A stretch of DNA of 64,000 nucleotides from positions 1-64,000 of the forward strand of contig JAJGRE010000001.1 in the NCBI GenBank assembly GCA_021083345.1. Direction: 5' to 3'. The translations under genes and the position numbers were made by a program. The DNA comes from Calditrichales bacterium MX18-03 (GTDB lineage: Bacteria > Bacillota > Clostridia > Lutisporales > Lutisporaceae). The notes under the pieces are model-generated. The model searched no databases. It worked only from the letters and a program-made list of their open reading frames with translations, and had not been told where the DNA came from. Positions 54,394 to 58,298 of the stretch are shown here, in pieces; the first letter of the stretch is position 1; each line of letters opens with the position of its first letter.

Positions 54394-54420
54394 AAAAAAA
54401 CGGATGGTCTGCCACCCGTT
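54394..54420 (-). terminator. Terminator of the minus-strand propeller-like gene
   Basis: Read on the minus strand, AACGGGTGG pairs with CCATCCGTT (loop CAGA, one G-T pair) and is followed by TTTTTTT. It overlaps the stop codon. Confidence 0.82.
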
Positions 54421-56206
54421 ACATATTTTGTTTCAAGAAGTTTCCTAGTTTTTTAAGCAACCCTTGGGACTCTTTTTTGTCCTGAGCAGGCTCATCCTTC
54501 TTAGGACTGATTTCTTCGTTGCGATCATCACGAGCCGGCAAATCTGATGATGATAACATTCCTGCTTCTGTGATTCTATCCGGCTCGGTATTAACTATTT
54601 CACTATAAGGTTTTTTGTCAATTTGAGGAATGGCCACGCCGATTGCGTGTCCCGAAGTATTTGACGTACCGTGATAGGCAGAAGCTGCAACCGTACCGCC
54701 GTATTTCATCTCTCCGTTGATGAATCTCTCTTTAAAGCCCGAGGGTTTGCTGGCTGTTTTTCGGTTCAAGTCTTGATTGATTGTTGATGGCCTATCCATA
54801 AAGACCGGCATCGTACTGCTGTTCATAAACTGCTCTTTAAATTTGCTGTTTCGAAGGTAAGTCCCTTTTTTCATGTCATTTACTTTTGTCTCGCTATCTG
54901 GCGTGTGCGGTCCTTTCATCTCCACAATCTTTTCCGGTTTGTCAGTCAGCTTTGTCTGGATTGTTTTGATGTCTTCTGTTATGGTGCTGATTTGTCTGAC
55001 AAGATAGGGTATCAGTTCTTCCAAGCTCTGAATCGACATAGGTTCCAACGGGTTGCTGCCAATTGCTTCTTCGTTTGCGGAAGCGGTGTCAATTTGTTCT
55101 ATGCTATGAAGGTTCAATTCATCATCAATATAAAGATAACGTATTGTTATCCCAACCCCGTTATCTGATGCTTTCAAATGTTTTACAGCTGCCGGCGGAT
55201 TTTCAAAAGGGATGAGCGTCTGGTCGGACCATGTGCGCGTGTCTTCATCAAAGTGAATTCGAAATAAGTCCTTTTCATAAATCCATTCTGCGAATAATAA
55301 ATCCTCCTGTAAAAAATACGTTGGCTTCTTGAGATGTTCATCCAGTTCAAGCTTACTCATTGTAACAAATTCGAAGCTCTCGTCCAAAACCGATTTCTTC
55401 TGAAAATAGAAAAGGATAGCAAGATTATCTTCAAAGGCATGGCAAAGTAAATGCATCTTGGACCCTTGAGGAAGCAAATCAATACGGATATTGCTGTTGG
55501 ATAGACCTGCAACTTTACTGTGATTCCATTTATCTTCATCAGGAACATAATGATAGAAATTCAATCGGGTGGATTTGCCGTCACTCCAGGTTGCAACAAA
55601 GGCTATTGCGCCATTACTTGCCCTTGCAGCACAAAAGGACTTTTCCAAATCTTCCGAGTATATCTCTGAAATGCTGGTTTTCCTGAAGCTTTCGTCAACA
55701 CGATACAAATGGTATATATTGTAAAAGTTCAAAAGCGGGAGGCTTGTCGCATATAAAACATGGATGCACTGATCCAAGATGAACATATCCAACAATACGA
55801 TATGACTATTGTATTTAAAATTTTCAATGACTTCCATGAGCCAACGCTTCTCTTTATAGCTGAAAAGTATCAACTCTCCATTCCTGCTATGGCACACCAA
55901 GTAGATGGTATTATCCTGATCCATTGACACAAGAAACGGTTCATTTACCTGGTTGATCAGCATAGTATCTCTAGTACTTCCGTCATATGACCTTTCTTTA
56001 AGCAGGATTGCAGAATTTGTATGGTAAAAAAAGTACTTGTTATTCTGAATATCTTCAATTACCGCAGGAAGTCTTGCAGAAAACAATTGAATCACCCCTT
56101 TTTTTGACCTACAAATATATATGTTAATACGCTGCTTTTTATGTCCAAATACCGGCATCAGGTCAATCAGATAAATCTCCTCAATTTTTAAAGAAGTACT
56201 CACCAA
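54419..56206 (-). CDS. Putative beta-propeller protein with disordered tail, unknown function
   Basis: 595 residues, no signal peptide or membrane segment. Residues about 10-375 consist of repeated blocks of alternating hydrophobic strands with aromatic and Asp/Lys turns (for example NTIYLVCHSRNGELILFSYKEKRW and KMHLLCHAFEDNLAILFYF), suggesting a propeller. A short helical segment (about 385-430) and a disordered tail follow, with two copies of FKE-x-F-x-N (NSKFKEQFMNSS and PSGFKERFINGE) and a C-terminal amphipathic piece GLLKKLGNFLKQNM. Start uncertain: TTG at 56206 has no clear ribosome site. Divergent from the paralog pair; a spore role is possible but unproven. Confidence 0.65.
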   Translation of the reverse strand: MVSTSLKIEEIYLIDLMPVFGHKKQRINIYICRSKKGVIQLFSARLPAVIEDIQNNKYFFYHTNSAILLKERSYDGSTRDTMLINQVNEPFLVSMDQDNTIYLVCHSRNGELILFSYKEKRWLMEVIENFKYNSHIVLLDMFILDQCIHVLYATSLPLLNFYNIYHLYRVDESFRKTSISEIYSEDLEKSFCAARASNGAIAFVATWSDGKSTRLNFYHYVPDEDKWNHSKVAGLSNSNIRIDLLPQGSKMHLLCHAFEDNLAILFYFQKKSVLDESFEFVTMSKLELDEHLKKPTYFLQEDLLFAEWIYEKDLFRIHFDEDTRTWSDQTLIPFENPPAAVKHLKASDNGVGITIRYLYIDDELNLHSIEQIDTASANEEAIGSNPLEPMSIQSLEELIPYLVRQISTITEDIKTIQTKLTDKPEKIVEMKGPHTPDSETKVNDMKKGTYLRNSKFKEQFMNSSTMPVFMDRPSTINQDLNRKTASKPSGFKERFINGEMKYGGTVAASAYHGTSNTSGHAIGVAIPQIDKKPYSEIVNTEPDRITEAGMLSSSDLPARDDRNEEISPKKDEPAQDKKESQGLLKKLGNFLKQNM

Positions 56207-56349: not shown

Positions 56350-57135
56350 ATGCCGCTTCCAACCGTGCCATGTATGGGGAAATGCAGTATTGACGTTACT
56401 TGCGGTGAATCAGCTTCTCCAACTCCAATGAACTTTTTCTTCGAATGCATCAAGGTAAAGAAGGTTTTTGACGAATTCGGCCTGAGAGACTGCGTAGAAG
56501 GGATTCGCTTTGAACTCTGTGAAAAACCCAAGAATGGAGAAATCGAACCCACTCTGATCCTCAGAAACTGTGTTTTGAAAAATGTCACTATAGCCGATGC
56601 CTCCAAGCGGAGCAGCAACGGCTACTTGATAGAAAAAAGACTTCGCTTCAGCGGAAAATGCTGCTGTGAGGTATATGGAAAAGATGTATCCGGAAACATA
56701 ATCCGCATGAAGGTAACGGAGCTTCCTTATGGCACCAAGTTTTCCATTGGACCAGACGGAGAGCTCTGCTACAGCTTCAATGTGAGAAGAGAGTACGTAG
56801 GACCCAACAGCATCTGTCCCGAAGATTTCGAAAAGCTTCTCCATTTTATTGCTGAAGGAAGATTTGAGCTGCAATGCCTTGAAGAAGCCATCATCGATGA
56901 TGAGAACAATGAAACCTGCGATGAAATCCTGACAACAAGCCTCGGATTATTCCTAGTCGTTAAATTCGATACAGAAGTCCAATTGTGCATACCTGTCACC
57001 GGGTATTGCCAAGTCTACGAAGACGAACAGAACATAGAGGAAGGCTTTTGTGATGATACGTTCCCGTGTCTGGATTTCCCGGAATTCAATCCGCCTCAGC
57101 TGTTCGATGCAGATATTCCACCATATTGCGATTAG
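56350..57135 (+). CDS. Cys-rich paralog A, possible spore-surface protein
   Basis: 261 residues, no signal peptide or membrane segment, 14 or so Cys. The block FFFECIKVKKVFDEFGLRDCVEGIRFELCE resembles the SPOCS/DUF3794-type 'ECI.V.KVYD.C' motif of clostridial spore-associated proteins, though I cannot confirm membership. A second domain runs from about 145 (RREYVGPNSICPEDFEKLLHF) and the C-terminus is Pro/acidic. Preceded by ATAGGAAGGTG. Nearly nine of ten residues match paralog B, including the upstream 23 nt, so this is a recent tandem duplication. Function inferred only. Confidence 0.72.
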   Translation: MPLPTVPCMGKCSIDVTCGESASPTPMNFFFECIKVKKVFDEFGLRDCVEGIRFELCEKPKNGEIEPTLILRNCVLKNVTIADASKRSSNGYLIEKRLRFSGKCCCEVYGKDVSGNIIRMKVTELPYGTKFSIGPDGELCYSFNVRREYVGPNSICPEDFEKLLHFIAEGRFELQCLEEAIIDDENNETCDEILTTSLGLFLVVKFDTEVQLCIPVTGYCQVYEDEQNIEEGFCDDTFPCLDFPEFNPPQLFDADIPPYCD

Positions 57136-57259: not shown

Positions 57260-58042
57260 ATGCCGCTTCCAACCATGCCATGTATGGGGAAATTCAGTAT
57301 TGACGTTACTAACGCTGAATCAGCTGCGCAGTCTCCAATGAACTTTTTCTTCGAATGCATCAAGGTAAAGAAGGTCTTTGATGAATTCGGCCTGAGAGAC
57401 TGCGTAGAAGGGATTCGCTTTGAACTCTGTGATAAACCCAAAAATGGAGAAATCGAACCCACTCTGATCCTCAGAAACTGTGTTTTGAAAAATGTCATCA
57501 TAGCCGATGCCTCCAAGCGGAGCAGCAACGGCTACTTGATAGAAAAAAGACTTCGCTTCAGTGGAAAATGCTGCTGTGAGGTTTACGGAAAAGATTCCTG
57601 CGGAAACGTTATCCGCATGAAGGTAACGGAGCTTCCTAATGGCACCAAGTTTTCCATCGGACCATACGGGGAACTCTGCTACAGCTTCAATGTAAGAAGA
57701 GAGTACGTAGGACCCAATAGTATCTGTCCCGAAGACTTTGAACGGCTGCTGCACTTTATTGAGGAAGGCCGGTTTGAGCTTCAGTGCCTGGAGGAAGCCA
57801 TCATCGATGATGAAAACAATGAAACCTGTGATGAAGTCCTGACAACGAGCCTGGGATTATTCCTGGTTGTCAAATTCGATACCGAAGTCCAATTGTGCGT
57901 GCCGGTAACCGGGTACTGCCAAGTCTTGGAAGATGAACAAAACATAGAGGAAGGCTTCTGTGAAGATGTTTTTCCGTGTGTGAGCTTCCCGGAATTCAAT
58001 CCCCCTCAGCTGTTCAGTTTTAATGGAGACGCAGATTCTTAA
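57260..58042 (+). CDS. Cys-rich paralog B, possible spore-surface protein
   Basis: 260 residues, almost identical to paralog A through residues 27-235. Differences cluster in the N-terminal 25 residues (TNAESAAQS), one mid-protein loop (KDSCGN for KDVSGN) and the C-terminal tail (LFSFNGDADS for LFDADIPPYCD), which suggests that the ends are under different constraint from the core. Same ribosome site and start as paralog A. It precedes the DUF1858 gene by 26 nt and may be co-transcribed with it. Confidence 0.72.
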   Translation: MPLPTMPCMGKFSIDVTNAESAAQSPMNFFFECIKVKKVFDEFGLRDCVEGIRFELCDKPKNGEIEPTLILRNCVLKNVIIADASKRSSNGYLIEKRLRFSGKCCCEVYGKDSCGNVIRMKVTELPNGTKFSIGPYGELCYSFNVRREYVGPNSICPEDFERLLHFIEEGRFELQCLEEAIIDDENNETCDEVLTTSLGLFLVVKFDTEVQLCVPVTGYCQVLEDEQNIEEGFCEDVFPCVSFPEFNPPQLFSFNGDADS

Positions 58043-58068
58043 GATTCAACATGAAGGTGTGACACAAT

Positions 58069-58272
58069 ATGATAACACAGGATATGAAAGTCCGTGATAT
58101 TATTAGAAAATACCCGAATACGCTTAAGCTGTTAAAGCGGATGCATCTATACCCTTCCGGATGCGGCTGAGGCGGCAGGATGCCCGATTATACGCTGGAG
58201 CAGGCTGCTCGGCTTAAAAAGCTTGATCCCAAGGACATTCTCATAAAACTAAATGCTATAATAAAAAGTTAG
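58069..58272 (+). CDS. DUF1858-domain protein with in-frame UGA, candidate selenoprotein
   Basis: 67 codons from ATG (AAGGTGTGA 8 nt upstream) to TAG, interrupted only by TGA at codon 34 (58168-58170). Before it: MITQDMKVRDIIRKYP to YPSGCG; after it: GGRMPDYTLEQAARLK to DPKDILIKLN. Both halves follow the DUF1858 pattern, in which Cys residues lie at this turn, so UGA sits where a Cys-type redox residue is expected (C32-G-U34). A hairpin fitting a bacterial SECIS lies at 58194-58213. Alternatives are a 33-residue truncation or a mutation of a Cys codon. No selenocysteine genes are in the window. Confidence 0.72.
58194..58213 (+). promoter_or_regulatory. SECIS-like hairpin downstream of the in-frame UGA
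   Basis: GAGCA (58198-58202) pairs with TGCTC (58206-58210) around a GGC loop; GC (58194-58195) with GC (58212-58213) extends it past a small internal loop. The apical G-G is 33-34 nt after the UGA, inside the 16-37-nt range and with G in the first loop positions, as reported for bacterial SECIS elements. Confidence 0.6.
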
Positions 58273-58298
58273 ATTTATTCTAACTTTTTATTATAGCA
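58254..58298. terminator. 19-bp perfect inverted repeat, probable bidirectional terminator
   Basis: The first arm (58254-58272, starting TGCTATAATA) includes the TAG stop of the DUF1858 gene; the second arm (58280-58298) is its exact complement, loop ATTTATT. AT-rich arms supply T-runs on both strands. Confidence 0.75.

Follow-up and report, generated by a model that had tools for sequence, protein, structure and literature searches.

A selenoprotein with the DUF1858 domain has already been catalogued (WP_012065717.1), its selenocysteine (Sec) lying in a CxxU motif (PMC9312934, PMC13188914). The cysteine-containing DUF1858 proteins, including 2k5e, 2k53 and the NCBIfam family TIGR03980 (prismane_assoc), carry CxxC at the corresponding place, and the ScdA_N domain of the iron-sulfur repair proteins ScdA/YtfE (RIC) carries CCGG. 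The gene described here was found in a window of 64,000 nucleotides, the whole stretch of DNA analysed. Its predicted product shares with the published CxxU form the Pfam domain and a Sec on the second Cys position, but differs in its C-G-U-G-G motif, in belonging to a separate clade and in having its own upstream candidate partner gene. The published CxxU motif is absent from this group, which reads C-G-U in 18 of 18 members. CxU is thus a new variant, adding a form to a selenoprotein family catalogued as CxxU only; DUF1858 selenoproteins as a family are already known. The first-pass annotation of this DNA proposed a candidate new selenoprotein. Orthologs, decoding machinery and a SECIS element uphold the selenoprotein part of that proposal; novelty at the level of the family falls away with the catalogued CxxU protein, and the CxU form itself is unlisted.

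A DUF1858 reading frame with an in-frame UGA

The features in and around the gene are as follows.

58069..58272, + strand: DUF1858 gene, almost certainly for a selenoprotein, 67 aa (Pfam PF08984 over cut-off, TGA-bearing orthologs, pN/pS)
58168..58170, + strand: UGA codon 34, in frame, predicted to be decoded as Sec34 (TGA in 18/18 aligned sequences)
58053..58059, + strand: probable ribosome-binding site GAAGGTG, 5' of the ATG (from the sequence)
58194..58213, + strand: putative SECIS hairpin, apical loop AGGCT at 58202-58206 (covariation, RNAalifold, bSECIS rules)
58254..58298, strand unassigned: perfect 20-bp AT-rich inverted repeat, likely terminator, spanning the stop codon (fold, terminator scan)

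The frame runs from ATG to TAG with the TGA as its sole interruption, as had been noted from the letters, and with Sec it reads MITQDMKVRDIIRKYPNTLKLLKRMHLYPSGCGUGGRMPDYTLEQAARLKKLDPKDILIKLNAIIKS, placing Sec34 in the context C32-G33-U34-G35-G36. The DUF1858 match (E 2.3e-9; 37.7 bits versus a gathering cut-off of 32.2) covers both sides of the UGA, in agreement with the earlier remark that both halves follow the domain pattern. ScdA_N matches the 67-aa protein more weakly (22.0 versus 32.5 bits) and is the second Pfam match in 11/11 members, while the score against TIGR03980, 36.2 bits, is below the curated cut-off of 44.95. The inverted repeat folds at -25 kcal/mol (z -10), with a terminator scan match on the minus strand; a repeat of that 20-bp length is absent from the relatives read. 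Rfam gave chance-level matches only, all under gathering scores and mostly on this AT-rich palindrome.

The source genome carries the complete Sec machinery that the first-pass annotation had named as a check. The genes selA (E 1e-190), selB (372 bits) and selD (390 bits) form a single cluster (C7:1180574-1184980), and the tRNA-Sec found in the same genome has the anticodon TCA (UCA in the RNA). One in-frame TGA is present in selD, within SGUAAK, and one in grdA; selenoproteins are therefore in use here, and the guess that a glycine reductase would be among them proved apt. Reassignment of UGA is ruled out, UGA being an ordinary stop that ends 17 of the 46 long ORFs in the 64 kb. Fifteen of 15 other family genomes tested have selA.

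Of the 21 further genomes in this family of Gracilibacteraceae-like Clostridia, 17 have an ortholog with a single TGA, and together with the source genome they span six genera; the search took in 41 genomes and gave no CxU ortholog outside the family. Records of the relatives are labelled Gracilibacteraceae (within Clostridia), Clostridiaceae, Clostridia or Bacillota bacteria. Across the resulting 18 rows (source copy plus 17 orthologs) C-G-U-G-G is unchanged, so that the C-x-U arrangement first pointed out in the source copy is invariant, and the codon-34 column holds TGA throughout, never TGC/TGT, TAA, TAG or UGG. Sequencing error, including a misread TGC or TGG, is ruled out as the source of the TGA by its presence in 17 other genomes. 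For three genera, within-genus pN/pS values are 0.22-0.37 ahead of the UGA and 0.21-0.28 behind it; the region past the UGA is therefore equally selected. No Cys version was found of the CxU orthologous group itself. At family level the Cys homologs anticipated for codon 34 do exist: profile alignment pairs Sec34 with the second Cys of CxGC in 2k5e (GC) and with that of CCGG in ScdA.

Contig searches gave no match with a single protein sequence as query, and with a five-row alignment returned four family members together with Cys-containing homologs recorded under Spirochaetia and Euryarchaeota. A C-G-U-G-G-plus-loop pattern, which in its exact form misses the source copy with its extra codon, was present in 14 family genomes and one other among 391 genomes of the class and 398 of the phylum. 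The displayed bases of that sole outside match (G663) do not suggest a CxU gene. Among roughly 790 sampled genomes, the CxU group was found only in the Gracilibacteraceae-like family.

An AlphaFold2 model with Cys replacing Sec has four helices and a pLDDT of 84, the Sec loop being its weakest part (pLDDT 57). It superposes on 2k5e (Z 9.9, rmsd 1.6, 62 residues), on 2k53 (Z 9.0, rmsd 1.8, 62 residues) and on YtfE 5fny (Z 8.7, rmsd 1.9, 59 residues). With 2k5e, 2k53 and TIGR03980 the protein shares fold, length and flanking motif, but theirs is CxxC where it has CxU. With ScdA_N it shares the fold and, weakly, the sequence, and its Sec aligns with the second Cys of the CCGG motif of ScdA. Only the N-terminal-like domain of ScdA/YtfE is present: unlike those proteins, this one stands alone and has no hemerythrin-like di-iron domain.

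The downstream hairpin and the decoding of UGA34

A hairpin with G-G at its loop start had been placed 33 nt downstream of the UGA. The hairpin is present; the distance is shorter, 31 nt to the loop A and 32 nt to the first loop G. In the source copy the local MFE is -8.4 kcal/mol and the stem is imperfect, broken by a single bulged G or by a G-G mismatch. Its folding energy alone is not better than that of shuffles (z -0.84), so the evidence for a SECIS comes from the 17 orthologs in other genomes. There the loop is always AGGCT or AGGTT, about nine or ten codons 3' of the UGA, and the six-pair stem has 98% of its cells paired and four pairs with double changes (alignment A4). The covariation score, 0.554, compares with a shuffled mean of 0.260 and was reached by 0 of 500 shuffles, which ignore the relatedness of the sequences; controls with the 3' arm slid by 1-3 columns, which retain it, fall to 0.03-0.15. 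RNAalifold predicted the same helix unprompted. Published rules for bacterial SECIS elements ask for a loop of 3-9 nt with a G within the first two positions, 16-37 nt from the UGA, a stem of 4-16 bp and an MFE of at most -7.5 (PMC13188914), and the source hairpin lies inside these limits (loop AGGCT/GGC, 31-32 nt, -8.4 kcal/mol). The strong covariation and the agreement with published rules support the SECIS-like character first suggested for 58194-58213.

The stem overlies a well conserved protein stretch (E/R/Q-Q-A-A/V) in which Q45 is invariant, and the hairpin might on that account be a by-product of the protein motif instead of an RNA element. This is highly improbable, given how the codons behave. 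Residues 44 and 48 change together with pairing preserved (GAG..CTC, CGG..CCG, CAA..TTG), Q45 is CAG in 18/18 and the third base of codon 46 (GCT/GTT) is always T, synonymous positions being frozen in CAG and GCT only; neighbouring Gly codons, by contrast, use three or four third bases. The loss of covariation on sliding the arm likewise speaks against a by-product. Two other readings concern the codon. UGA commonly ends genes here, and gene finders would stop there, leaving a 33-residue peptide followed by the decaying remnant of a pseudogene; six genera (18 genomes) would then have retained this remnant at pN/pS of about 0.2-0.3 past the UGA, with its frame intact, its stop codon identical and its hairpin covarying, and a true stop is the reading given the least credence of all. 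Cysteine is inserted at Sec codons to some degree in other systems, and the UGA might be read without Sec-tRNA, by near-cognate Trp/Cys insertion or a frameshift, giving a selenium-free product. The genome's complete Sec machinery and other selenoproteins, the fit of the hairpin to the SECIS model, the aligned Cys of homologs and the fact that UGG never substitutes for UGA make this, too, very hard to credit.

Translation through UGA34 would then be carried by SelB and tRNA-Sec, directed by the hairpin, to give a 67-residue DUF1858 selenoprotein predicted to form a four-helix unit like that of 2k5e/2k53 and of the YtfE/ScdA N-terminal domain. Six lines of evidence agree: the machinery, the conserved codon, selection past the UGA, the covarying SECIS, the Cys homologs and the fold. 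On their combined weight the protein at 58069-58272 is almost certainly a real selenoprotein, as judged from comparative sequence data. Gene finders would end the product at residue 33, and annotation is expected to lose or truncate the gene throughout the relatives.

Sec placements among DUF1858 genes

The DUF1858 genes with an in-frame TGA can be sorted by the placement of Sec. Besides the CxU group there is a CxxU-P form (L037-L039), a CxxU-GG form, seen at five loci from other families and also in a source-genome paralog, a CU-GG form (L073) and a UxxC form with Sec in the first position (L092). The placements C-U-G-G and U-x-x-C are likewise unlisted for DUF1858. The source-genome paralog, a second DUF1858 selenoprotein candidate (L101, C7:696578-696760, minus strand), has, in the register seen for the CxU gene, the hairpin ATAGAGC-AGGCT-GCTCTAA.

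Hairpins of like shape, in the register of the CxU gene, are present in the CxxU-GG and CU-GG genes examined, and this match in shape and register suggests that the CxU, CxxU-GG and CU-GG genes are of shared origin. Across these forms the partner Cys can take different places (CU, CxU, CxxU), with Sec-Gly-Gly and the SECIS unchanged in position. A tree built from 29 short sequences, whose 67 columns hold limited signal, joins the CxU group and one CU form in a clade (91/91) that is separate from both CxxU groups.

Gene neighbourhood and possible role

The constant neighbour of the CxU gene offers a handle on the role of the group. Three further features lie upstream.

57260..58042, + strand: cl0, candidate partner gene, 260 aa, about ten family-invariant Cys (adjacency in complete loci)
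56350..57135, + strand: tandem paralog of cl0, 91% identical (alignment A5)
54419..56206, - strand: cl2, conserved divergent gene, 595 aa (in 13/18 loci, divergent to cl0)

In every locus with a complete upstream stretch a cl0 gene (~250 aa) lies directly upstream on the same strand. In the source, 26 nt separate its end from the selenoprotein gene. Most loci have a gap of -4 to 27 nt and one has 66 nt; a computed gap of 124 nt at L108 reflects a TGA interrupting the cl0 frame. Neither Pfam nor NCBIfam matches cl0, and it has no PDB relative by sequence; its model is of middling quality and lacks a convincing fold match, the best having Z 3.1. Relatives of cl0 in other Clostridia are distant only, mostly along the C-terminal third. 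Reading towards the selenoprotein gene, the upstream genes are rarA, the divergent cl2 (which has no Pfam or NCBIfam match) and cl0. Downstream there is either iscR-iscS-iscU-mnmA or a glycosyltransferase/sugar cluster. In the source genome and in G002 the isc genes come after that cluster, which puts iscR-iscS-iscU-mnmA ~10.6 kb downstream of the selenoprotein gene in the source; in several family genomes they are directly downstream.

Sec34 would stand where CxxC (DUF1858) and CCGG (ScdA_N) have their second, conserved Cys, and by alignment Cys32 and Sec34 would make up a C-x-U selenol/thiol redox centre. Given the Cys/Sec pair and the named character of the related families, a redox role via CxU is likely. 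The close, conserved spacing suggests that the selenoprotein gene and cl0 are co-transcribed, and adjacency makes cl0 a tentative partner, a pairing given somewhat less than an even chance. The likeliest role would be that of a small thiol-disulfide (selenylsulfide) carrier, reducing or rearranging cysteines of cl0 or of a linked Fe-S/sulfur pathway. The reading as a whole, centred on read-through of UGA34 to give a CxU DUF1858 selenoprotein, is very probable, its functional part less so. In two genomes of the family, G006 and G013 (L141, L143), cl0 is kept and selA is present with no selenoprotein gene at that site, which indicates that the CxU selenoprotein is dispensable.

Service in Fe-S cluster assembly or repair instead of service to cl0, in the manner of the ScdA/YtfE N-terminal domain, would alter the function only. 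A link to Fe-S is suggested by the similarity to ScdA/YtfE, with ScdA_N as the regular second Pfam match and Z 8.7 to YtfE, and more weakly by the nearby isc genes. Against it, the di-iron domain is absent and the glycosyltransferase cluster separates the isc genes in many members; the rarA-isc order may be general in Clostridia, and the position of iscRSU near the selenoprotein gene may be mere gene order. Dedicated Fe-S service is accordingly a possible but rather unlikely alternative.

For the preferred reading, a CxU redox selenoprotein, a more specific role can be imagined, in which the protein is dedicated to cl0 and controls its cysteines, possibly during spore or cell-surface assembly beside the glycosylation cluster. 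This is improbable; were it true, selenium would be used in disulfide control of surface assembly. A possible kinship of cl0 with the exosporium protein CsxA (PMC7333573) was considered, prompted by the cysteine content of cl0, by the glycosyltransferases and by the divergently oriented neighbour. The csxA gene context was not seen in one distant locus read.

The divergent gene cl2 varies in length from 470 to 600 aa across loci. At L162 a comparable divergent arrangement is present around a cl0 relative.
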